Shown here: positions 546 to 13,815 of the stretch, piece after piece
How positions within the stretch are numbered: the first letter of the stretch is position 1
Layout: each line of letters starts with the position of its first letter
From: Erythrobacter insulae
Lineage (GTDB): Bacteria > Pseudomonadota > Alphaproteobacteria > Sphingomonadales > Sphingomonadaceae
Reading direction: 5' to 3'
Length of the DNA: 64,000 nucleotides
Assembly (NCBI RefSeq): GCF_007004095.1
Contig: NZ_VHJK01000001.1
Span: 624,501-688,500 of the forward strand
The notes under the pieces: generated by a model
Database searches by the model: none
What the model was told of the DNA's origin: nothing
Seen by the model: only the letters and a program-made list of their open reading frames with translations
Program-made: the position numbers and the translations under genes

Positions 546-1456
546 AGTACGCATTACACTATGCAACGCTGATAGCTGTAACTCTCATAGCGTTGCTCAG
601 TATACGTACTTGCGCTTATCAGGGCGATACCCGCGCCTATCAGACCGACAGCGCCCGCAACACCGAGAATTACATCGCGCTCGAATGCAGGCCCGGACCC
701 GATTACGCCAAATGCAAGCGCGAGATTGAACAAGCTTCCCGCCAAGAGCAACAAGCCCAGTATGATCTCAGCAGCCAGCAAACCATGGCGCTCTGGACTT
801 GGGTTATGGGCGCTATGGCAGTCTTTGGCGTCGCCCTCAGCGGGGTCGGCGTTTATCTGATTTGGCAGACTTGGCGTGAGGCTCAAGATACTGCCAAAGA
901 AGCTCGGACCTCTAACAATCTCTTTCGTGAAAACGCTCGCGCCAAACTTGTCTATGAAATTCTTGAGTATTCGATGCCCTGCGAGGAGCCGGATCAACCT
1001 AGTTGGTTCGCGGTCGCCAAAGTCCGAATTGGAAATATCGGAGATACCGCCGCAAGCCGCGTGTCCATCAAGCTTGTAACTTACCTTTGTAAAAACAAAG
1101 TCCGATACGGCACTTTGCGGGGCAGAGACTGGCTTGGAAACATCAAAGCTGGGGAAGAAGTAGTGCTTGAGATCAGATGTAAGGTGACGCCAAACGACAG
1201 GCCCAAAGTAAGGCTCAACAAAGCCGATATGGTTTTGCTTGACTGCCAATTTTCCTATCAAGACATCTTTGAACAAAACTGGCCGGACCAGTTTTGGCGC
1301 ATTGGACGAACGCGACAAAAAAGGATCATTGAAGCCGACCATGCATCTGATTCTTTCAGGGCTACTAATGCTGAATATTTCGAAAGGACGCGTCCCTTTA
1401 AATTCAAAAAGACCGACAATTCCAAGCACCCCACAAACGATGACAGCCGCCATTAG
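503..1456 (+). CDS. Two-helix membrane protein of unknown function
   Basis: The 317-residue product has one membrane segment at about residues 17-38 and a second at about 99-122. The roughly 60 residues between them are polar, with two cysteines (ECRPGPDYAKC) and a glutamine-rich stretch, probably periplasmic. The C-terminal 190 residues are soluble and may be a beta-rich cytoplasmic domain. I do not recognise the family by name; similar two-helix proteins occur as single genes in alphaproteobacterial mobile regions. The start overlaps the DUF6471 gene by 43 bp. The AT-richer composition compared with the chromosomal genes to the right fits acquisition by transfer. A long open frame on the opposite strand across this gene is the relaxase frame read through and is not taken as coding here. 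Confidence 0.65.
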   Translation: MSDSDRGKRDQTKLKYALHYATLIAVTLIALLSIRTCAYQGDTRAYQTDSARNTENYIALECRPGPDYAKCKREIEQASRQEQQAQYDLSSQQTMALWTWVMGAMAVFGVALSGVGVYLIWQTWREAQDTAKEARTSNNLFRENARAKLVYEILEYSMPCEEPDQPSWFAVAKVRIGNIGDTAASRVSIKLVTYLCKNKVRYGTLRGRDWLGNIKAGEEVVLEIRCKVTPNDRPKVRLNKADMVLLDCQFSYQDIFEQNWPDQFWRIGRTRQKRIIEADHASDSFRATNAEYFERTRPFKFKKTDNSKHPTNDDSRH

Positions 1457-1504
1457 CAGCGCAGACAAACGCCTACGCATTGGTGCGTTTCCTACATAAT
1501 GCCG

Positions 1505-2457
1505 GATCATCGCCTTGCCGCGTTCGAGCATTGACGGGCGATCATTCGCTCGCTTGGCAGCCGCTACAGTTAACTCATGCGAACGCAGCTTCGCGTCGCG
1601 CACCATCCCTTCAAGGTCGAGCCCATGATCCCATGCCTGCCCTTCCCATTGGGCCATGAGAGCACCGCGATCGACACCGCTTTGCTTGGCCTGGCGGGTC
1701 GCCAGCGCCGCCACCACACCCGCCTCAAGCCCACCGCCGCGCCGCGCTTCGAGCACCTCCTGACGCCGCGTCGAGAAGGCCATCACCGCGTCACGGTCGA
1801 TACCCTTGGCTTCGAAGTTGCCGTGTTTTCCAAATTCACCAATGCGGTAGCCAAGCTTCTCAGCCTCGATCCGGAAGCGCGCCATCGTCATGGCATTGAG
1901 CAAGGTATTGTGCTGCCACAACTTGTCGTTGCGCAGTGCCCTCCACTTGCCGTCTTTGTCCTGCGTCATATTGGCGACGACGCATGGAAGTGCAGGTTCG
2001 GTTCCTGGTTGCGGTTGGTGTCGTGCTGGAACACGGCGACGGTCAGGTTGTCGCTAGCATGCAGCCGTTCTTTGCCACCCTTCTCGGTGCGATATTGGGC
2101 CGCATTTTTCTCCGCCCATTGGAGCGTGACGACGACCGCTGAACGGTACGCGTCAATGATCCGCTGATCCTTGCCGACGAGTGCCAGAAGCGACCAGCTT
2201 TTGGGCAGCGAAAAGGTCAGATCTGTCCCGGCGCGGTGGCATTGACCCTGGTGGCCGATACGTTCGCCAGTGGGCAGTTCGCCGCGCAAGATTGCCTCAA
2301 ACGCTGTGGCATCGACCGTGCCTGAAAGACCCAGCCGCTCGGCACCTTTGCCGACCCAGATGCCGGACCGATCAGCGTCCGCCTTGGTGTAATAATTGTC
2401 GTTGGCGAAGTAGTTGGCCGCACCGCCAGCCGAGCGCACATTGGCAACCGAAAGCAT
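1505..2457 (-). pseudogene. MobF (TrwC/TraI-type) relaxase remnant, frameshifted and truncated
   Basis: From ATG 2457 the first 163 codons encode a MobF relaxase N-terminus: the YFANDNYYT segment near residue 16 holds the candidate catalytic tyrosines, and EPNLHFHA near residue 155 is the metal-binding histidine motif. After HFHA the frame is lost. An intact gene would read VVANMTQDKDGKW, and this is recovered in another frame from 1969 if one C is restored on the plus strand at about 1981. Homologous sequence then ends at about 1505, where the IS1595-type element begins, so the rest of the relaxase and its helicase part are missing here. The single-base change could be a real mutation or a sequencing error; the truncation does not depend on it. 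The gene starts four bases after the stop of the upstream small gene, as an operon. Confidence 0.8.
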
Positions 2458-3929: not shown

Positions 3930-6686
3930 ATGAATGCAGTCGAAATCGAAGAAGCAATTTCAGAACTGGCCGCCCAGCCATTTGACAGGGCCGAGTTTCC
4001 ATTCGCGTTTCTCGAAGCGTTCGGGCGCAAGGCGAACACGCTGAAGCAATTGCGGGCCGGGACAACCAATGCCTCGGACCTTCCCGGCGGTGTCCTCCAG
4101 CGCAACAATATCCATATCGCCACTTGCGATCCGGGCACGGTCGACGAGACGCTCAAGGCCCTGCGTGAAAGCCCCAAAACGGGCGCAGCAAAAGCCAAGT
4201 TCATCCTCGCCACGGACGGCACCGACTTGCAGGCGGAGGATCTGGTCAACGGCGAATCCGTCGCCTGCACTTACAGCGATTTCCCGAACCACTTCGGCGC
4301 GTTCCTGCCGCTCGCTGGCATCACCACCGTCAAGCAAATCCGCGAGAACAGCTTCGACATCCGCGCCACCAGTAAGCTCAACAAGCTCTATGTCGAGCTG
4401 CTGAAAGAGAACCCCGACTGGGCCACGGCGGAGCGCCGGCCCGACATGAACCACTTCATGGCGCGGCTGATCTTCTGCTTCTTTGCGGAGGATACCGATA
4501 TCTTCAACGGAGAGGGCCTGTTTACCTCCACGGTGGAGCGGTTCAGCGACCGGGAAAGCTCCAACACGCACGAGATCATCTCAAACATCTTCCGCGCGAT
4601 GGACACCTCCACGCGGCACGAAGGCAGGCTGGACGATCGCTATCGCAAGGCGGCGAACATCCCTCCCCACGCGGACGCCTTCCCCTATGTCAACGGCGCG
4701 CTGTTTTCAGGCAGTGTCGAGGTGCCGTGCTTCAGCCGTATGGCGCGCAGCTATCTGCTGCATATCGGCGGGCTGAACTGGAAACAGATCAACCCCGATA
4801 TCTTCGGCAGCATGATCCAGGCGGTCGCCGATGACGAGGAGCGCGGTGCGCTCGGCATGCACTACACCAGCGTGCCGAACATCCTGAAGGTGCTGAACCC
4901 GCTGTTTCTGGACGATCTCCGCCACCAGTTGGAAGAGGCGGGAGACAACGCCCGCAAACTGCTAAATCTGCGGACCCGGATGGAGAAGATCAGGGTGTTC
5001 GATCCGGCCTGCGGATCGGGCAATTTCCTCGTCATCGCTTACAAGCAGATGCGCGAAATTGAGGCCGAGATAAACAAGCGGCGCGGAGAGAGCGAGCGCG
5101 ACAGCGACATCCCGCTCACCAACTTTCGCGGGATCGAACTGCGCGACTTCCCGGCAGAGATCGCGCGTCTCGCGCTGATCATCGCTGAGTTCCAGTGCGA
5201 CGTGCTCTATCGTGGCCAGAAGGAAGCGCTCGCAGACTTCCTGCCGCTCGATAGCCAGAATTGGATCACTTGCGGGAATGCGCTGCAAACGGATTGGCTG
5301 GGGATTTGTCAACCAACCGGTAATGGCGTCAAGGTTCGTGGAGATGACTTGTTCAATACACCTTTGGACCAAGTCGAGATAGACTTCGAGAATGAAGGTG
5401 GTGAAACCTACATATGTGGTAATCCGCCATATACGGGAAGCAAGAAATCCGAGCAAAGAGAGAAAGAGGACCTATCGCATGTCTTTGCGGGCGTTCTGAA
5501 GAAATACAAAACTCTCGATATGGTTGCAGCTTGGATTTGGAAGTCTCTCGATCTCTTGAAGCACGGAAGTGGGGGAGCCGCTTTTGTAGCTACGAAATCA
5601 ATTTGCCAAGGCGAACAAGCTGCTCAGTTTTGGCTGCCATTTTTTAAGCGCGAAGGTCGAATCTATTTCGCCCACCGTCCATTCCAATGGGCCAATTTGG
5701 CAAGTCGAAATGCTGGCGTTACGTGCATAATTGTGGGCGTGACTACCAGCCGATCAACAAATTGCTACCTTTACGAAGGTGATGAGCGTCGCGAGGTGTC
5801 CCAGATCGGTCCCTATCTGATCGATATGCCACCTATGGCAGTTTCGAAATCCACCCGTCCGTTGCACAAATTGGGACCAATGAGCTTTGGCGACCATCCC
5901 TATTATGCTGGCGAGCTTATTGTTGAAAGAGGCGAGGCTGCAACGCTTGAGGGCAATCCTGCCAGTCGGTTCCTTCTTCCGTTATTTGGCACGACCGAAC
6001 TCACCAATGGTAGGCCGCGTTTTTGCTTCTGGATTTCAGATGATCAGGCGAAGGATGCATACAAGGAAGAGTTTCTGGTCGATCGGTTTGAGCGAATTGC
6101 CGAGGTTCGTTCTTCCAAGACAAAGGACGTCGCTGCACTAAAGCTAGCGAAACAACCATTCCGTTTTAGAGACCAAGCGACTGGTCGAAGTCGTCTGGCT
6201 GTGTTCGCAAGGCATTCATCCGAAAACCGAGAATATCTTCCTTTCGACGTTTTCAGCTTCCGTGTCGTAGTTTCAGATGCGGCATTTTTCAGCCCGAATG
6301 CCTCTCCAGAGATGCTTTCAGTTTATGCCTCGAGACTTCATACCATTTGGATAGCAACAGTTTGTGGACGTATCCGGTCGGACTATCGATATTCCAACAC
6401 CCTCGGCTGGAACACTTTCCCCGTCCCCAAACTGACCGAACAACACAAAGCCGACCTGACTCGCTGCGCCGAGGACATCCTCCTCGCCCGCGAGGCACAT
6501 TTCCCCAAGACCATCGCCGAGCTCTACGATCCGGAGAAGATGCCCGAAAACCTCCGCCACGCGCACGATCGCAACGACGAGGTGCTGGAACGCATCTACA
6601 TCGGCCGCCGCTTCAAAAACGACACCGAACGCCTCGAAAAACTGTTCGAACTCTACACCAAAATGACCAGCACAAAGGCGGCGTAG
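3930..6686 (+). CDS. MmeI-like class I DNA adenine methyltransferase
   Basis: This 918-residue protein should methylate adenine in DNA and carry its own target-recognition domain. The SAM-binding motif I (FDPACGSGNFL) is at about residue 357 and the catalytic NPPY motif at about residue 498. The N-terminal 170 residues and the helical segment NHFMARLIFCFFAEDTDIF around residue 175 match the N-terminal and spacer regions of MmeI-type proteins. I do not see a convincing D-x(n)-ExK nuclease motif at the N-terminus, so cleavage may be supplied by another gene here. I chose ATG 3930 over an upstream TTG at 3909. Bases about 5290-6400, covering the part after NPPY, are AT-richer than the ends of the gene, which suggests an exchanged recognition domain. 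It heads the co-directional block that ends at 12929. The methylated sequence cannot be predicted. Confidence 0.9.
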   Translation: MNAVEIEEAISELAAQPFDRAEFPFAFLEAFGRKANTLKQLRAGTTNASDLPGGVLQRNNIHIATCDPGTVDETLKALRESPKTGAAKAKFILATDGTDLQAEDLVNGESVACTYSDFPNHFGAFLPLAGITTVKQIRENSFDIRATSKLNKLYVELLKENPDWATAERRPDMNHFMARLIFCFFAEDTDIFNGEGLFTSTVERFSDRESSNTHEIISNIFRAMDTSTRHEGRLDDRYRKAANIPPHADAFPYVNGALFSGSVEVPCFSRMARSYLLHIGGLNWKQINPDIFGSMIQAVADDEERGALGMHYTSVPNILKVLNPLFLDDLRHQLEEAGDNARKLLNLRTRMEKIRVFDPACGSGNFLVIAYKQMREIEAEINKRRGESERDSDIPLTNFRGIELRDFPAEIARLALIIAEFQCDVLYRGQKEALADFLPLDSQNWITCGNALQTDWLGICQPTGNGVKVRGDDLFNTPLDQVEIDFENEGGETYICGNPPYTGSKKSEQREKEDLSHVFAGVLKKYKTLDMVAAWIWKSLDLLKHGSGGAAFVATKSICQGEQAAQFWLPFFKREGRIYFAHRPFQWANLASRNAGVTCIIVGVTTSRSTNCYLYEGDERREVSQIGPYLIDMPPMAVSKSTRPLHKLGPMSFGDHPYYAGELIVERGEAATLEGNPASRFLLPLFGTTELTNGRPRFCFWISDDQAKDAYKEEFLVDRFERIAEVRSSKTKDVAALKLAKQPFRFRDQATGRSRLAVFARHSSENREYLPFDVFSFRVVVSDAAFFSPNASPEMLSVYASRLHTIWIATVCGRIRSDYRYSNTLGWNTFPVPKLTEQHKADLTRCAEDILLAREAHFPKTIAELYDPEKMPENLRHAHDRNDEVLERIYIGRRFKNDTERLEKLFELYTKMTSTKAA

Positions 6687-6707
6687 GATTATGCGCAGGA
6701 TTGTCAC

Positions 6708-7691
6708 ATGAGCCAGATTATGGCTCCCATCGACGCGATAATGCGCGAGCCGCCGAACGTCTGGCTCACGAGCTTCTATGGCTTCGATCCCGGCAATTGG
6801 GGTTTTCTAGGCTTCAGCACCGACAGCCAGAGACGCAGTTTCATCCGTCGTAGTGAGCCGGGTGCATTGGTCGTAATCTACGCGGTGGGCAATGCGCCAT
6901 CGGACATGCTTGGCCGGGTTGTGGGTGTGCTGCAATGTTCCCACCGCGTGAACCACGCACAAGCCTTCATGTCACCGATGGCGTGGGAGGCGAAAAAGAA
7001 CGATCCGGATCGCGAGGATCGCTGGGATCTTGGTGTGAAGGCCATTCGAGCTTGGCGCGTCGCAGCCGACGCCCGCCCTTTGATCGCAGATTTTGCAAAC
7101 GAAACCTATTCCGCTGGCAGGGCACAAACGATCGGATCGCAGGGCATGCCTCTAACCAGCGAAGAGGCGCGAAAGTTGCTCGACCTTGATCTTCAGGAGG
7201 TCTCCGTCTTTGGCGAAATTCCTGTCGACGATGCCCGCTTGGCAAAGGGTTCGGACTTGTTCGGCGTCAACAAGGCAGGGCCGGTATCGCAAAACCCGCA
7301 TATGGTACGTGAAGCTGAGGGGCCTAAGAGCCTTTATCAGCTGAAGCTTGATGGCGATATGAGCGCCTTTCTTGGCGAAGATGCTGGCGATGACATAGTC
7401 GTTAAGGTCGGGATGTCTGGCAGTCCACCGACGCGCTGCGAAGACCACAATCGCGCCTTGCCGAATGGAGCCTTCAGATGGCGCTTGCTCAGGTCGAATG
7501 AGACTGCAGGCGAGCCACATTTCCCGAATTCACGGATCGCCATTGAAGGCGAAAACGGAATGAAAAAGCTTCTGACCAAGAATGGCAAATGGCTTGGTGG
7601 TGAATTCTTCCGCGCAAGCGGTGATTTGGTCGATGAAGCGTGGGCGGTTGGGATGCGCGACGCAAAACGGTGGGCTGACCTATCCAGCTAG
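6708..7691 (+). CDS. EVE/PUA-like N-terminus fused to a GIY-YIG-like C-terminus
   Basis: The 327-residue product starts 21 bp after the methyltransferase stop, with AGGA at a suitable distance. Residues about 18-120 (VWLTSFYGFDPGNWGFLGF, then GALVVIYAVG and GRVVGVLQ) look like a short PUA/EVE-type beta barrel, a fold known in other proteins to read modified bases. Residues about 208-300 show a GIY-YIG/T5orf172-like order: SLYQLKL, then VVKVGMSGSPPTR with Arg243, then a glutamate-containing helix near 280 and GGEFFR. Neither part is a strong match by eye and the middle is unassigned. If right, it may recognise methylated or otherwise modified DNA made by the upstream enzyme, or nick invading DNA. 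The base composition is somewhat AT-richer than that of the helicase gene. Confidence 0.6.
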   Translation: MSQIMAPIDAIMREPPNVWLTSFYGFDPGNWGFLGFSTDSQRRSFIRRSEPGALVVIYAVGNAPSDMLGRVVGVLQCSHRVNHAQAFMSPMAWEAKKNDPDREDRWDLGVKAIRAWRVAADARPLIADFANETYSAGRAQTIGSQGMPLTSEEARKLLDLDLQEVSVFGEIPVDDARLAKGSDLFGVNKAGPVSQNPHMVREAEGPKSLYQLKLDGDMSAFLGEDAGDDIVVKVGMSGSPPTRCEDHNRALPNGAFRWRLLRSNETAGEPHFPNSRIAIEGENGMKKLLTKNGKWLGGEFFRASGDLVDEAWAVGMRDAKRWADLSS

Positions 7692-7719
7692 GTTCGCAGT
7701 GATCCGCCCCATCATATGA

Positions 7720-7761
7720 TTGACTTTTAGGTCCAATGGTCCCTATATCTCATTTGAGATA
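7720..7761 (+). promoter_or_regulatory. Promoter and autoregulatory palindrome of the toxin-antitoxin pair
   Basis: TTGACT at 7720-7725 and TATATC at 7744-7749 form a sigma-70-like promoter with an 18-bp spacer. A palindrome, TATCTCA at 7746-7752 and TGAGATA at 7755-7761, covers the -10 box. RelB-type antitoxins repress their own promoters through such palindromes, so this is the likely operator. AGGAG follows at 7763-7767. It would also give the downstream helicase and GIY-YIG genes a promoter of their own. Confidence 0.65.
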
Positions 7762-7772
7762 CAGGAGATGGT

Positions 7773-8084
7773 ATGAACGCCCATAGCTCAATGATTCATG
7801 TCCGGATGGACAATGATCTGAAAGACCGCGCGACCGAGGCGCTGGCGGCGATGGGTCTGTCGACCGCCGATGCCGTGCGCCTGCTGTTCCACCGCATCGC
7901 CACCGACCAGGCCTTCCCGCTAGAGCTCAAGGTTCCCAATGCGGAAACCCGCGCGGCGATGGAAGAGGCGGATGAATTCTTCAAGAATGGCGCCGCGCCC
8001 CGCTTCGACAATGCTGACGATATGTTCGCCGAGCTCGAGGAAGAGAGCAAAGCCTTGCGCGAGGCCGGAAAACAGAAGTCTTGA
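7773..8084 (+). CDS. relB: RelB/DinJ-family antitoxin
   Basis: This 103-residue protein begins with the ribbon-helix-helix pattern of RelB/DinJ antitoxins: IHVRMDNDLKDRATEALAAMGLS, then TADAVRLLFHRIATDQAFP. It should dimerise, bind the palindrome at its promoter and neutralise the YafQ-type toxin through its C-terminal half. The start is ATG 7773, with AGGAG six bases upstream. The last codons overlap the toxin start. The pair sits inside the methyltransferase-helicase block, not at its edge, so loss of the block would release the toxin. Confidence 0.9.
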   Translation: MNAHSSMIHVRMDNDLKDRATEALAAMGLSTADAVRLLFHRIATDQAFPLELKVPNAETRAAMEEADEFFKNGAAPRFDNADDMFAELEEESKALREAGKQKS

Positions 8085-8407
8085 AAAAAGCGGCTGCGAG
8101 CAAGCGCACCGCGCTGCCCCGGACGATTGGCTATGCGAAGTCGTTCCTGAAAGACTTCGAGCGGCTGTCGCGTTCGGGCCGATACGATATGAAAAAGCTC
8201 AAACAGGTGATGCTACTGCTCATCGCCAATGACGCGCCGCTCGGCCCCGAATGGAAAGACCACGCACTCAAGGGCGAATGGCAGGGGCACCGGGAATGTC
8301 ATGTCGGTGGCGATTTCCTGCTGATCTACCGCGTAGAAGACATTCCGGCACCCGGCGGCGGCATTTTCTTCACCCGCGCCGGAACACACAGTGAGCTTTT
8401 CAAATGA
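8081..8407 (+). CDS. yafQ: YafQ-family mRNA interferase toxin (RelE superfamily)
   Basis: The 108-residue product carries the YafQ signature: a basic N-terminus, SFLKDFERL, then WKDHALKGEWQGHRECHVGGDFLLIYR and a terminal THSELF. The histidines in KDH, HRECH and THS correspond to the catalytic histidines of YafQ, so it should be an active ribosome-dependent ribonuclease. The start is a TTG at 8081, overlapping the antitoxin stop by four bases, which fits coupled translation. Its own stop overlaps the helicase ATG by four bases, linking toxin expression to the helicase. Confidence 0.88.
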   Translation: MKKAAASKRTALPRTIGYAKSFLKDFERLSRSGRYDMKKLKQVMLLLIANDAPLGPEWKDHALKGEWQGHRECHVGGDFLLIYRVEDIPAPGGGIFFTRAGTHSELFK

Positions 8408-10467
8408 GCGCCAAGGATCAGATCATTCCCGCCGTATCGTTCACGACTGCCCAGACCGGCGCGTCGGCCAAGTCGGACGAACTGGGCATGCGCCCGATGC
8501 AGGCGCAAGCTTATGAGAAGCGCGGCGAGCAATATCTGCTGATCAAGTCCCCGCCCGCCTCAGGCAAATCGCGTGCGCTCATGTTCATCGCGCTCGACAA
8601 GCTGGCGAACCAAAATGTCCGGCAAGCCATCATCTGCGTGCCCGAACGCTCGATCGGCGCAAGCTTTAACACCGAACCACTGAGCAAGTACGGTTTTTTC
8701 ACCGACTGGAACGTCGCCCCGCAATGGAACCTGTGCAACACGCCGGGTGCCGATGATCCCAAGGTCGCGAAGTCCAAAGTGAAAGCGGTCGGCGAGTTCC
8801 TTGCGAGCGATGAAAAGGTGCTCGTCTGCACTCATGCAACGTTTCGCTTCGCCTTCGACGAGCTCGGACCGGAAGCGTTCGATAACCGTCTGGTCGCAAT
8901 CGACGAATTCCACCACGTCTCCGCCGATGCCGGCAACCGTCTCGGCGCGCAGCTCGCGCAGTTGATCGGGCGCGACAAGGCGCATGTTGTGGCGATGACG
9001 GGTAGCTATTTCCGTGGCGATGCCATTCCTGTGCTTGCGCCGGAAGACGAAGCCAAGTTCGAGACGGTTACCTACACCTACTACCAGCAGCTCAATGGAT
9101 ACGAGTATCTGAAGACGCTCGATATCGGCTACAGCTTCTACACCGGGCCTTACACCGAGAAGATTTCGGCGCTGCTCGATCCGACGGTGAAGACCATCGT
9201 CCACATCCCATCGGTCAATTCGCGCGAGAGCCTGAAGGACAAGCATCGCGAGGCCGAGGACATCATGAACCACCTCGGCGACTGGCAGGGCATTGATCCC
9301 GAGACAGGGTTCCACCTTATCAAGACGGCTGCCGGAAACGTTATCAAGGTGGCCGACCTCGTCGACGACGATTCCGCCAAGCGCGACCGCGTCGCCGCAG
9401 CCCTGAAATCACCCGATGCGCGATCGGATCGCGACTTTGTCGACATCATCATCGCGCTGGGGATGGCGAAGGAAGGCTTCGACTGGATCTGGTGCGAACA
9501 CGCGTTGACGGTCGGCTATCGCTCCAGCCTAACTGAAATCATCCAGATCATTGGCCGGGCAACCCGAGATGCGCCGGGTAAGACCCGCGCTCGCTTTACC
9601 AATCTGATCGCCGAACCAGCGGCGGACAGCCCGCTCGTAGTCGACGCGATCAACGATTACCTCAAGGCGATTGCGGCGAGCTTGCTCATGGAGCAAGTGC
9701 TCGCGCCCCGCTTCGACTTCACGCCAAAGGACGCAGGGCCGAAACCGGACTTCGACTACGGGCCGGGTGGATACAAGGAAGGTGAGACGAATTTTGGCGT
9801 GAACGATCACGGCCAGATGCATTTCGAGATCAAGGGTCTCAAACTGCCAAAGAGCGTCGAGGCGACGCGTATCTGCCGTGAGGATCTCAACGAGGTCATT
9901 GCGACCTTTGTGCAGGACAAGGCAGTCGTCGAACGCGGCGTATTCGATCCCGACGTTGTTCCAGAAGAGCTAACCCAGCTCAAGATGGGCAAGATCATTC
10001 GGGAAAAGTACCCCGAATTGAGCGAACACGATCAGGAAGCGGTCCGCCAACAGGCGGTTGCTGCGATGACTTTGACCCAGCAAGCCAAGGCTGTGCTGAC
10101 AAGCGATGGTGATGGCGAAATCAAGGCAAATACCGCCTTCATCGAAGGTGTGCGCAGGTTCGCGCTCAGCGTAACGGAGCTCGACATCGATCTCATCGAC
10201 CGGGTCAATCCGTTCGAGGCAACGATTGCGGTCTTGGCCAAGTCCATGGATGCAAAGACCCTGTTGCAGGTTCAGGCGGTCATCAACGCAAAGAAGGACA
10301 AGCTGACCTACGAAGATGCGCGCGCACTTGCCGAGCGAGCGCTGGAATTCAAGCGGGAGCGCGGACGGCTGCCATCGCTGACTTCTCAAGATGCGTGGGA
10401 ACGCAAGATGGCCGAGGGCATCGCTTTCCTCCAACGCCACGCCACCAAAGAGGCCAGCAATGGCTGA
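8404..10467 (+). CDS. DEAD/DEAH-box (SF2) helicase of a restriction-like system
   Basis: The 687-residue protein is a superfamily 2 helicase-like ATPase. Walker A is PASGKSR (GKS at residues 54-56), motif II is DEFH (167-170), motif III is MTGS (about 198-201), motif V is GMAKEGFDW (353-361) and motif VI is QIIGRATRD (381-389). The C-terminal 280 residues after the helicase core are unassigned and may hold a DNA- or partner-binding region. It resembles helicase subunits of type III or type I-like restriction systems and has no nuclease motif that I can see. The ATG at 8404 overlaps the toxin stop; the end overlaps the next gene by eight bases. It probably works with the GIY-YIG protein that follows. 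Confidence 0.85.
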   Translation: MSAKDQIIPAVSFTTAQTGASAKSDELGMRPMQAQAYEKRGEQYLLIKSPPASGKSRALMFIALDKLANQNVRQAIICVPERSIGASFNTEPLSKYGFFTDWNVAPQWNLCNTPGADDPKVAKSKVKAVGEFLASDEKVLVCTHATFRFAFDELGPEAFDNRLVAIDEFHHVSADAGNRLGAQLAQLIGRDKAHVVAMTGSYFRGDAIPVLAPEDEAKFETVTYTYYQQLNGYEYLKTLDIGYSFYTGPYTEKISALLDPTVKTIVHIPSVNSRESLKDKHREAEDIMNHLGDWQGIDPETGFHLIKTAAGNVIKVADLVDDDSAKRDRVAAALKSPDARSDRDFVDIIIALGMAKEGFDWIWCEHALTVGYRSSLTEIIQIIGRATRDAPGKTRARFTNLIAEPAADSPLVVDAINDYLKAIAASLLMEQVLAPRFDFTPKDAGPKPDFDYGPGGYKEGETNFGVNDHGQMHFEIKGLKLPKSVEATRICREDLNEVIATFVQDKAVVERGVFDPDVVPEELTQLKMGKIIREKYPELSEHDQEAVRQQAVAAMTLTQQAKAVLTSDGDGEIKANTAFIEGVRRFALSVTELDIDLIDRVNPFEATIAVLAKSMDAKTLLQVQAVINAKKDKLTYEDARALAERALEFKRERGRLPSLTSQDAWERKMAEGIAFLQRHATKEASNG

Positions 10468-11659
10468 ATTGAGTGACCTCGAACTGCTGGCCGAGCTTGG
10501 TGTCGAAACAGCACCCGAGCCGGTTCGAAAGCTGACCCCCCTTCAAGAACGCATTATAGCGGGATTCGAGGACATACAGCGTTTCGTCAAAGAGCATGGA
10601 CGCCTCCCCAGGCATGGGGAGGATCATGACATTTTTGAGCGACTCTATGCTGTCCGTCTTGAGAGGCTTCGCGCTCTTCCCGAAGCGCAAGAACTCTTGG
10701 CGAGCATGGACCCGGACGGCATTCTGGATGCAGCCGAGCCGTTAGGGAAACCATCGGACGAACTAGACGACACTGCACTTCTGGCAGAACTTGGCATCCA
10801 ACCGGGGTCGGAAGATGATATTACAAAGCTGCGGCATGTGAGTTCTCGGGCCGAGAAGAGAGCCGCTGAAGAAATCGCCAACCGTGAGAGGTGCGAGGAT
10901 TTCGAAGAGTTCAAGCCGCTGTTCGAGGCGGTGCAGGTCGATCTGAAGGCCGGTAGCAGACAGGCCAAGGCGCTCGGCAATTCTGAGGTCACGCTGGCCG
11001 AAATCCAGCCAGGGAATTTCTTCATCGTCGGCGGGCAACTCGCATACATCGCCGCCTCGACCGACGCCTTCACGACTCAGTATGAGCGGGCTGATCGCCG
11101 TGTCCGAGTCATATACGACAACGCAACCGAGGCGACGGTCCTTTCACGCTCATTCCAGAAGTCGCTCTATCGGGACGAGTCCGCTAGGCGCGTGAGCGAG
11201 CAAAACGCAGGACCGCTTTTTGGAGACACCGCTGAGCCCGACGATCTGGAGAGCGGCACGATCTATGTACTCCGTAGCAAATCGTCGCATCCCTATGTCG
11301 ACGAGCATCGCGAGCTGATCCATAAGATCGGCGTTACAGGGCAGCCGGTCCTCAGCCGGATTGCCAACGCGCGTAACGATCCGACTTTCCTGCTCGCGGA
11401 TGTCGAAGTCGTGGCCGAGTACAAGCTCTTCAACATCAATCGAACCAAGCTCGAACGGCTGATCCATCGTGCGCTCGGGCCTGCCCGCCTTGATCTTTCT
11501 GCAGGCGATCGATTTGGCAAAACTGTCCAGCCGCGCGAGTGGTTCCTTGTCCCGCTTTCGATCATCAACGAATTGGTGGCGCGGATCAGTGACGGTACTG
11601 TCACGCAGCACGTATACGATCCCGCAAGGGCGGAGTTCGTTGCCCAAGATGACGTCTGA
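10460..11659 (+). CDS. GIY-YIG nuclease-like protein (T5orf172/MUG113 type)
   Basis: This 399-residue protein has a C-terminal GIY-YIG-type domain: TIYVLRS at residues 267-273, HKIGVTG at 288-294, Arg300, KLERLIHRAL with Glu332, and REWFLVP at 359-365. The tyrosine of the second motif is replaced by lysine (KIG), as in T5orf172 members, whose nuclease activity is not always established. The N-terminal half holds two similar short segments, DLELLAELG at 6-14 and DTALLAELG at 104-112, and then charged helices. The start at 10460 lies within the helicase 3' end; an upstream in-frame start at 10391 is less likely. It is the best candidate nuclease of this block. Confidence 0.8.
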   Translation: MAELSDLELLAELGVETAPEPVRKLTPLQERIIAGFEDIQRFVKEHGRLPRHGEDHDIFERLYAVRLERLRALPEAQELLASMDPDGILDAAEPLGKPSDELDDTALLAELGIQPGSEDDITKLRHVSSRAEKRAAEEIANRERCEDFEEFKPLFEAVQVDLKAGSRQAKALGNSEVTLAEIQPGNFFIVGGQLAYIAASTDAFTTQYERADRRVRVIYDNATEATVLSRSFQKSLYRDESARRVSEQNAGPLFGDTAEPDDLESGTIYVLRSKSSHPYVDEHRELIHKIGVTGQPVLSRIANARNDPTFLLADVEVVAEYKLFNINRTKLERLIHRALGPARLDLSAGDRFGKTVQPREWFLVPLSIINELVARISDGTVTQHVYDPARAEFVAQDDV

Positions 11660-11693
11660 CTTGCAGTTGGACGCAATCAGGCGAAGTTAGCTC

Positions 11694-12929
11694 ATGGCAC
11701 GTCAGTTCACCCGCTCCGAGTTCTATGAGCTCGTCTGGTCCAAGCCAATGACGCACTTGGCAAAGGAATTCGGTCTTTCTGACGTCGCCTTGCACAAGAT
11801 TTGCCGCAAGCACGATGTACCCAACCCTCCGCTTGGATGGTGGGCAAAACATGCAGCGGGCCAAAGGGTCAAACGAACACCGCTACCCAGGCTGAAGTCG
11901 GGCATTTCCGACACGATCAACATCGCTGGCGGAGAGCTCCGCAACGAACCCGATTCCGTCGCGCAAATCCGCGAAGAGGCCCGCGTTCGGGCCTCGGCGT
12001 TCGATCCCAAAAAGGTCGATCAGGAACATTCCATCGTAACGCGATCGATGGCCAAGTTGCGCAAGGCAAAGCCTGACGAACGGGGATTGGTGAGGCTCGC
12101 TCAGTCCGCCTTGATCGACGCGGAATTAGCGCCGGATTCAATTGATCGGATCGAACTATCGCTCAACCGAATAGTCACGGCAGCACAGGTCCAAGGCTTT
12201 GAACTCAGCGGCAAGGCTGAACGCGCCGCGTTCACGGACGGAAACGTGATTGTCCCCTTCAGTCTAAAGGAAGCAGTTAAGCGATCGCAGCACGAGCCCA
12301 CGCCCGAGGAATTGGCGAAGGAAGAGAAGGAACGAAAACGGCGAGAGCGGCGCTGGGCACGGGACGATTGGGATTACGTCCCGAGCTTTTCCTCATTTAG
12401 CCATTGGCCAGAATGGGATTATGCACCGACCGGCAAGGTATCGTTCGAGTTCGACCTCTATCTCCGATACTCGTCATCTCTCCGCCGCTCCTTCAAGGAT
12501 GCCAAGATCCAGCGCCTGGAAAACATGGCGAACGATATCGCAGTGGGTCTTGCCGTACTGGCTTCTGCGAAGCGCGAGGATGACAGGCGAGCCGAGGAAG
12601 ACCGCATCCGTGCGGAAGAAGAAGCGCGTCGGCGCAACGAGGCTAGACGGCTAGCCTATATCGAAGACCGGCGCCTCAAGGTGCTCGATCTCGTGTTCGA
12701 GCGGGTCGAGAAACGCGACCGCCTGCGCCGCCTAGCCACACAACTAACTGAGGAACTCAAAGCCACGTCCTCGCCGCGTTCCACCGAGTTTCTTGACTGG
12801 CTCAATGCAATTGTCGAGCGAGCCGAGCGCGCTTCAAGTGTCGAAGGATTCGAGGTGTTGTTCGAGGCTCAACACGTGTTTGGACCAGACGATGATAAGG
12901 GCTTTTACCCTTCGCGCTATGGCTGGTAA
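11694..12929 (+). CDS. Helix-turn-helix plus coiled-coil protein of unknown function
   Basis: The 411-residue product starts with a segment that looks like a helix-turn-helix: FYELVWSKPMTHLAKEF then GLSDVALHKICRKHDV at about residues 10-45, followed by PNPPLGWWAKHAAG. Two long, highly charged helical stretches follow at about 205-225 and 290-355, probably coiled coils. I recognise this architecture from alphaproteobacterial genomic islands but know no assigned function. It starts 34 bp after the GIY-YIG gene in the same direction, so it may belong to the same transcription unit as a regulator or sensor. It is the last gene before the island border. Confidence 0.7.
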   Translation: MARQFTRSEFYELVWSKPMTHLAKEFGLSDVALHKICRKHDVPNPPLGWWAKHAAGQRVKRTPLPRLKSGISDTINIAGGELRNEPDSVAQIREEARVRASAFDPKKVDQEHSIVTRSMAKLRKAKPDERGLVRLAQSALIDAELAPDSIDRIELSLNRIVTAAQVQGFELSGKAERAAFTDGNVIVPFSLKEAVKRSQHEPTPEELAKEEKERKRRERRWARDDWDYVPSFSSFSHWPEWDYAPTGKVSFEFDLYLRYSSSLRRSFKDAKIQRLENMANDIAVGLAVLASAKREDDRRAEEDRIRAEEEARRRNEARRLAYIEDRRLKVLDLVFERVEKRDRLRRLATQLTEELKATSSPRSTEFLDWLNAIVERAERASSVEGFEVLFEAQHVFGPDDDKGFYPSRYGW

Positions 12930-13257
12930 CCAACATCAAGCCACATGTGACGCGGCTGATAGCCAGCCCCCACGATCTCAGGATGTCCGCTTGCATCCAC
13001 TCAAAAGTGTGGGTCTGAGTGTGGGTCTGGTGAACTCTGAAATCTCCATATCGATCTGATATCAAATCGTTATTTCAGATATAGGTCGGACTCCGCCTCC
13101 GCCACCTTTTCAATACAGAAACCTATCATTAGCCGCTCAGCTGCACTGGCGGAGCGGTGAAATCTTATTGGTGGTTTTTCGAATAGATCACCAAGTGCTG
13201 CGCCTTTTGGCGCCCAGTGGCAATCATCCTCAAAGCGACCGGCCATTCGGCCAAGGC
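12930..13257. other. Putative attachment-site region at the island's right border
   Basis: No gene is seen here. In order there are the 11-bp direct repeats, an imperfect inverted repeat (ATCTGATAT at 13054-13062 and ATTTCAGAT at 13072-13080) and the sequence 13083-13106, GGTCGGACTCCGCCTCCGCCACC-like, which resembles the T-arm and acceptor end of a tRNA or tmRNA gene. Beyond it the chromosomal catabolic genes begin. This is the layout of an att site of an integrated element, but neither the integrase nor the other att copy is in the window. A GCGCC-TTTT-GGCGC hairpin lies near 13200-13213. Confidence 0.4.
13007..13029. repeat. Tandem 11-bp direct repeat near island end
   Basis: GTGTGGGTCTG occurs at 13007-13017 and again at 13019-13029, one base apart. 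Closely spaced direct repeats near an attachment core are typical arm-type binding sites of tyrosine integrases. The repeat sits between the last island gene and a tRNA/tmRNA-like tail. Confidence 0.5.
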
Positions 13258-13815
13258 TTAGCTATTGGCGTGTTCAGCCCGTGCTATTTCGTGCAGCCAA
13301 TCGGCGTGACGCGGAGCGGTTTTTGTTTGAGACCATTCATCCAGCATCATTGGTGCCACGCGCTTCAATTCGGCGTATTGATCATCAGTGCCAATATCCG
13401 CCGCAAGTTCGACGCGGTGACCGTTTGGATCAAAGAAATAGATCGATTTGAAAATACCGTGATGGGTCGGACCAAGGACATCGATACCTTCGGCCTCGAT
13501 ATGCTTCTTGGCTTCGAGCAACTCTGCTTCTGATGCGACCTTGAAGGCGAGATGCTGTACCCAGGCTGGGGTGTTTTCGTCGCGGCCCATATCGGGTTGA
13601 TTCGGCAATTCGAAAAATGCCAGGATATTGCCGTTTCCTGCGTCCAGAAAGACATGCATGTAGGGATCATAATCCCCGGTGGACGGCACGTGATCCTCGG
13701 CAAAGGCGGTGGTGTATTCCATACCGAGGATGCGGCCATACCATTCGACCGTTTCTTTAGCATCTTTGCAGCGATAGGCCGCGTGATGAATTCCTGATGG
13801 CTTCACTGCGCTCAT
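13258..13815 (-). CDS. VOC-superfamily (glyoxalase/extradiol dioxygenase-like) protein
   Basis: This 185-residue single VOC-fold protein has GIHHAAYRC near residue 8, WVQHLAFKV near residue 85 and [10 protein letters not shown] near residue 127. These hold the His, His and Glu expected to bind a divalent metal in dioxygenase-like members. The substrate is unknown. Its ATG overlaps the stop of the 4-hydroxyphenylpyruvate dioxygenase gene by four bases, so the two are translationally coupled and probably act on related aromatic compounds. A lactoylglutathione lyase role is possible but less likely in this context. Confidence 0.8.

Follow-up and report, generated by a model that had tools for sequence, protein, structure and literature searches.

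A 64,000-nucleotide stretch of the Erythrobacter insulae genome (contig NZ_VHJK01000001.1, positions 624,501 to 688,500; hereafter the window) contains a run of genes that is probably a DnmA-YeeB-YeeC restriction-modification operon with accessory defence genes in an internal slot. The three-gene core (methylase, helicase and YeeC-type protein) is already known, if little studied, but the internal slot after the methylase gene is new. A first-pass annotation of this DNA had linked this exact gene set to no named system, whereas the core has been described as dnmA-yeeB-yeeC (PMC7261158, PMC9973331). Neither the slot nor an exchange of target-recognition domains (TRDs) is described in that work (PMC7261158, PMC9973331), and we found no description of this slot in DnmA operons in the limited open-access literature.

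The seven co-directional open reading frames (ORFs) called in the first-pass annotation are all present on the plus strand at the positions given there. The methylase start at 3930 is correct, as the N-terminal motif MNAVEIE is conserved across the family. The longest ORF of the GIY gene runs from 10391, but the residues encoded before 10460 are unconserved among 98 proteins, which places the start at the ATG at 10460. With this start, the overlaps between start and stop codons at 8081-8084, 8404-8407 and 10460-10467 hold. These overlaps had been taken as a sign of a functional unit. The comparisons below support a unit of the restriction type, although one smaller than proposed: the methylase, the helicase and the GIY-YIG protein. 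A scan for promoters and terminators gave no excess over shuffled sequences. The features are as follows (aa, amino acids; L034, L035 and L036 are three near-identical operons discussed below).

3930..6686, +: DnmA-type (MmeI-family, nuclease-less) adenine DNA methyltransferase and specificity subunit, 918 aa; Pfam MmeI domains, motifs, match to structure 5hr4
5431..6384, +: target-recognition segment exchanged within the methylase; breakpoints from DNA alignment with L034/L035/L036
6685..7744, +: cargo segment that varies within the methylase-helicase slot; unalignable to L034/L035/L036, with flanks aligning at 87-88% and 93-95%
6708..7691, +: slot cargo 1, EVE + T5orf172/GIY-YIG-type protein, 327 aa, predicted modification-dependent (Type IV-like) nuclease; predicted fold, homologue domains, invariant residues
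7773..8084, +: slot cargo 2, RelB/DinJ antitoxin; Pfam RelB E 1e-15, kept in L034-L038
8081..8407, +: slot cargo 2, YafQ-family toxin, overlapping the antitoxin and helicase genes; Pfam YafQ_toxin E 5e-28, kept in L034-L038
8404..10467, +: YeeB-type superfamily 2 (SF2) helicase/translocase, 687 aa, motifs PPASGKS, DEFHH and QIIGRATRD; Pfam DEAD, motifs conserved in 16 homologues
10460..11659, +: YeeC-type T5orf172/GIY-YIG protein, 399 aa, putative nuclease subunit; Pfam MUG113/T5orf172, conserved motifs in 98 proteins
11694..12929, +: helix-turn-helix (HTH) gene, outside the system; sub-threshold RWP-RK match only (Pfam E 0.004)

A conserved core and a variable slot

A scan with the helicase across one genome per species identified at least 551 stretches with relatives, of which the best 80 were kept. 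A class-wide sample contributed 16 more loci (16 of 385 genomes with a match, the window's own included). Two contigs were retrieved twice (L021/L073 and L022/L067), so that the 94 loci counted here represent 92 distinct ones. The methylase gene lies 5' of the helicase gene on the same strand in every one of the 94 loci with both sides readable, an order kept more often than chance would allow. The GIY gene follows 3' of the helicase in the loci assessed, save for L100, where the contig ends, and L027, where the gene is apparently truncated. The hosts include Alpha-, Beta- and Gammaproteobacteria, Bacillota (Cohnella, Fictibacillus) and, according to metagenome bins, further groups. Conserved co-occurrence of the whole gene set, as the first-pass annotation envisaged, was not recovered: only the order of the core is constant, and the slot genes and the HTH gene vary.

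The gap between the methylase and helicase genes is 150 bp or less in 47 of the 94 loci, 215 bp in one and more than 250 bp in 46. We assigned the slot contents by homology in all but seven slots. The families found are YhcG (6 loci), AlbA_2 (5), RelB-YafQ (5), an uncharacterised 254-aa protein (5), EVE-GIY (4, or 5 with L070, whose EVE gene precedes the interval scored), a PDC-S67-like protein (4), GmrSD (3), an uncharacterised 137-aa protein (3), PDDEXK_4 (2), RhuM (2, one contig counted twice), PLD (2), an uncharacterised 277-aa protein (2) and Fic (1). Several of them are PADLOC candidate defence families. At the sequence level, the junction of methylase and helicase is thus a slot of variable content: about half of the operons have it closed, and the others carry swapped genes in it, many of them from defence families. 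By the same comparison, the EVE protein and the RelB/YafQ pair are exchangeable passengers of the slot and no conserved part of the core. Accessory genes, toxins among them, embedded in restriction-modification operons are an established idea, with PrrC in a type I system and with RhuM and Doc/Fic (PMC3710099). In one locus (L019, 2951-7201), a DnmA-type operon is directly followed by genes that, by eye only, look McrB-like (with an EVE-like N-terminus) and McrC-like, a modification-dependent companion placed behind the core and outside the slot.

Separate exchange of the target-recognition domain and the cargo

One operon of Qipengyuania sp. XHP0207 and two of Croceicoccus hydrothermalis (L034/L035/L036) are near-identical to that of the window (helicase, 98-99% identity; GIY protein, 94-98%). 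The four methylases, from three genera, share 91-96% identity in residues 1-490 and 820-918 but 34-43% in residues 505-818, in all six pairs. At the DNA level, similarity to the three operons drops out between 5428-5471 and 6334-6390 (break at approximately 5431-6384). A second break (6685-7744) holds a different gene in each of the four operons, always followed by the same RelB-YafQ pair: EVE-GIY in the window and uncharacterised proteins of 352, 194 and 113 aa in the other three. Between the two breaks, the C-terminal part of the methylase remains conserved, which implies that specificity and cargo were swapped separately. The alignments of these near-identical operons show such separate exchange as far as sequence can. 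L035 and L036 belong to one C. hydrothermalis genome, which consequently has two near-identical operon copies with different TRDs and slot genes, that is, two predicted specificities.

The slot itself, in a manner compatible with a restriction core, could be a neutral insertion spot where passengers use the promoter and mobility of the operon and have no functional link to restriction. The cargo is indeed diverse and partly uncharacterised, and near-identical operons carry unrelated genes. However, the same junction has been refilled repeatedly with known defence families (YhcG, GmrSD, RhuM, Fic, PDDEXK_4, AlbA_2) on the operon strand, and we regard a purely neutral slot as somewhat doubtful.

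The EVE-GIY and RelB-YafQ passengers

The EVE/PUA-like domain recognised in the first-pass annotation scores below threshold in Pfam (E 0.05), yet its predicted fold backs the assignment. The AlphaFold2 model of the EVE-GIY protein has two domains and is confident (mean pLDDT 86). Its top four fold matches in the PDB are EVE-type (1zce, 6n0s, 2ar1 and 2gbs; probability 0.96-0.99, E 0.003-0.015), and the matches include the N-terminal domain of archaeal McrB. Such matches to a model are supportive rather than decisive. The GIY-YIG-like nature of the protein, also proposed earlier, is backed by Pfam matches to T5orf172 (4e-8) and MUG113 (2e-9) in its homologues, not in the window protein itself. 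Furthermore, Tyr210, Lys233-x-Gly235, Arg243, Glu282 and an EFF motif are invariant and fit the GIY-YIG pattern. Residues and homologue domains together identify the C-terminus as a predicted nuclease domain of the GIY-YIG type. EVE-GIY-YIG fusions, which have the same domain pair, are predicted modification-dependent restriction enzymes (PMC7641849); the paper that describes them does not mention MmeI, YeeA or YeeC and so does not place them in a DnmA operon.

In an unbiased search with EVE across 401 genomes of the order, all four close homologues (43-49% identity) fell between a DnmA-type methylase and a helicase, and three distant ones (27-30%) outside the slot. The close EVE-GIY clade is thus tied to the slot, and the wider family is not. 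Two distant homologues from two genera (L130, 6914-7873; L131, 6703-7725) each directly follow a gene resembling that of GMP synthase (guaA), which hints at a common insertion spot. A contig labelled Arthrobacter (L040) has an operon with an EVE-GIY protein 64% identical to that of the window, an oddity of either the label or the transfer. A profile comparison of the EVE-GIY and YeeC-type proteins aligned the two in register but not significantly. The other passenger, identified early on as a RelB/YafQ pair, has the layout of a toxin-antitoxin module, with the RelB/DinJ antitoxin (Pfam RelB, E 1e-15) directly 5' of the YafQ toxin (Pfam YafQ, E 5e-28).

Methylase and predicted target site

The domains MmeI_N, MmeI_hel, MmeI_Mtase, MmeI_TRD and MmeI_C span the whole first protein (Pfam/NCBIfam, E down to 1e-106), which is also a near full-length match to the MmeI structure 5hr4 (E 5e-117). 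The motifs FDPACGSGNF and NPPY are conserved among 86 family methylases. Unlike MmeI (Type IIL/IIG), which carries its own PD-ExK nuclease in the chain, none of the 86 has the motif D-x(8-14)-[DE]xK in the first 110 residues searched, in agreement with the first impression of a methylase without a visible nuclease; helicase and putative nuclease are separate proteins. Restriction must therefore occur in trans or not at all. A Type IIL assignment, with nuclease and methylase in one chain, was rejected on the same count, and PADLOC nevertheless scores the methylase as REase_MTase_IIG (854 bits).

The methylase shares with MmeI the residue code of the TRD. The residues equivalent to MmeI 806/808 set base pair 6, E-R specifying C and K-D specifying G in MmeI-family enzymes; the 86 methylases have E-R (35), K-D (28), R-D (21) or other pairs (2). 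In the window methylase we found R-D at 806/808, R/D at the 751/773 equivalents and A/R at 774/810. R/D at 751/773 is the change published for MmeI that gives G:C at position 3; A/R at 774/810 is the pair of MmeI itself and corresponds to R:Y at position 4. We infer a site of approximately 5'-NNGRAG with the A methylated, leaving positions 1 and 2 open and reading R-D by analogy with K-D.

Helicase, YeeC-type protein and selection on the core

The helicase matches Pfam DEAD/ResIII, and a sequence search found no solved relatives. The YeeC-type protein has MUG113/T5orf172 at its terminus (Pfam E 1e-12) and the motifs IYVLRS, HKIGVT, R, E..H and EWF conserved in 98 proteins. In the predicted structure, its residues ~185-235 resemble domain I of EF-P, a KOW/SH3-type barrel absent from the Pfam matches (5wxk_B, root-mean-square deviation 2.0 over 53 columns; position deduced from the strand pattern).

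Several results weigh against a working restriction operon. The strongest counter-evidence is the lack of a phenotype in Bacillus subtilis, where deletion of dnmA, yeeB and yeeC left the plating of three phages unchanged and deletion of dnmA did not affect transformation; the authors use the term relic (PMC7261158, PMC9973331). In addition, a structure search of the PDB with the YeeC-type model (mean pLDDT 77) gave no GIY-YIG match, only the EF-P/KOW-like part. The methylase could accordingly be an orphan in effect, with an epigenetic role, and the helicase and GIY protein the leftovers of a restriction system that is now dead, the conclusion drawn for B. subtilis, where DnmA affects gene expression. 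In the window, however, both partners are intact with all motifs, and the ratio of nonsynonymous to synonymous substitutions (dN/dS) between helicase copies is 0.01-0.07, a level of purifying selection that argues against a decaying relic. The GIY, EVE and YafQ genes are under purifying selection as well. Furthermore, helicase and GIY protein are 94-99% identical to copies in other genera whose TRDs have been replaced, and partners kept while specificity changes are not expected of relics. We thus consider a dead system unlikely. In Vibrio crassostreae, dnmA and yeeB deletions reportedly increase sensitivity to some phages (as reported in PMC9973331).

Genomic setting

Plasmid records with the helicase number 262, and 117 of these are typed as conjugative. 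Plasmid records H2-H8 name it 'pseudomurein-binding repeat-containing protein' after a short C-terminal match, which is misleading. Among phages, only two short contig fragments matched (23% coverage). The right edge of the island lies at ~13257-13280, where five relatives lose similarity, and the genes beyond it occur in 59 of 61 sampled genomes of the genus. To the left of the operon are a broken MobF relaxase and a transposase-like gene, so that the operon occupies what is left of a conjugative element. The N-terminal pieces of this MobF/TrwC relaxase lie in two frames at window positions 554-2457 on the minus strand, its helicase-like C-terminal part lies upstream of the window (L148, 15662-17680), and the transposase-like gene is between the pieces (L148, 18752-19432).

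Among the relatives, only the two closest have the HTH gene (11694-12929), initially counted as a member, next to the system. No core gene lies within ~1.5 kb of five full-length homologues found elsewhere, and the gene was rejected as a component. One further locus (L162) has an HTH gene fragment near a 33-residue helicase fragment, a possible remnant of a deleted operon. A single new dedicated defence system made up of all seven genes, as first proposed, is very improbable: the genes are co-directional with overlapping start and stop codons, but only three are conserved, and those of the slot vary independently, as does the downstream HTH gene.

Comparison with known systems and proposed mechanism

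DnmA of B. subtilis makes N6-methyladenine (m6A) at GACGAG, lacks the MmeI endonuclease motif and is encoded next to yeeB (helicase) and yeeC (endonuclease-like), a set for which 'Type I-like' restriction-modification was suggested (PMC7261158); the conserved gene order is documented (PMC9973331). DnmA-YeeB-YeeC, formerly YeeA-YeeB-YeeC, of B. subtilis and V. crassostreae has the same three families in the same order as the window: an MmeI-like methylase without a nuclease motif, an SF2 helicase and a protein with a T5orf172/GIY-YIG C-terminus. Like the window operon, it occupies a horizontally acquired island with recombination and toxin-antitoxin genes nearby. The three genes are contiguous in B. 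subtilis, whereas EVE-GIY and RelB-YafQ separate the methylase and helicase genes in the window. One plasmid homologue of the helicase bears the annotation 'restriction/modification system component YeeB', the B. subtilis control genome matches MmeI_TRD, and the Bacillota relatives Cohnella and Fictibacillus carry the operon. The window core is a DnmA-YeeB-YeeC arrangement; judged from family, order and annotation, it is putatively orthologous to that of B. subtilis.

Type I and Type ISP enzymes also combine a methylase/specificity part, a translocating SF2 motor and a nuclease, as in the proposed core. In contrast to them, the window joins specificity and methylation in one MmeI-like chain, has a separate putative GIY-YIG nuclease and lacks HsdS. 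BREX with BrxU (GmrSD) resembles the window in pairing a core that spares methylated DNA with an embedded enzyme against modified DNA; the window has no BREX-type PglX, however, and the core genes are unrelated. The earlier comparison to BREX- or DISARM-like defence is not supported, and BREX, DISARM, MADS and Dnd were rejected as the home of the locus: the methylase matches (PglX, DrmMI, MAD2) are local only and far below cut-offs.

We infer a Type I-like restriction core with an exchangeable, Type IV-like second layer. The methylase would recognise its asymmetric site (~5'-NNGRAG) and place m6A on one strand. At unmethylated sites, it would instead recruit the YeeB helicase, whose ATP-driven translocation would let YeeC cut, as in Type I/ISP/III enzymes. 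EVE-GIY would act as an enzyme of its own, recognising modified bases and cutting modified phage DNA beyond the reach of the core; GmrSD, another modification-dependent class, is in the same slot in three loci. RelB-YafQ may stabilise the locus or arrest the cell upon loss or inhibition of the locus.

Implications

The family occurs in at least 551 stretches in a set with one genome per species, yet its methylase is scored as 'Type IIG' and its helicase is often misnamed. Despite this wide occurrence, the genetic test published for B. subtilis came out negative. The target site can be predicted from the MmeI residue code and, hence, tested quickly, and the four near-identical operons, which differ in TRD and cargo, amount to a natural swap experiment on restriction and its second layer. 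We tentatively propose, as a conceivable though not yet favoured generalisation, that DnmA-YeeB-YeeC operons form a modular platform of wide distribution, in which a translocating restriction core stays fixed while its specificity domain and its slot are exchanged independently, the slot providing a second layer (modification-dependent nucleases such as EVE-GIY or GmrSD, or toxins) that may act when phages evade the first.

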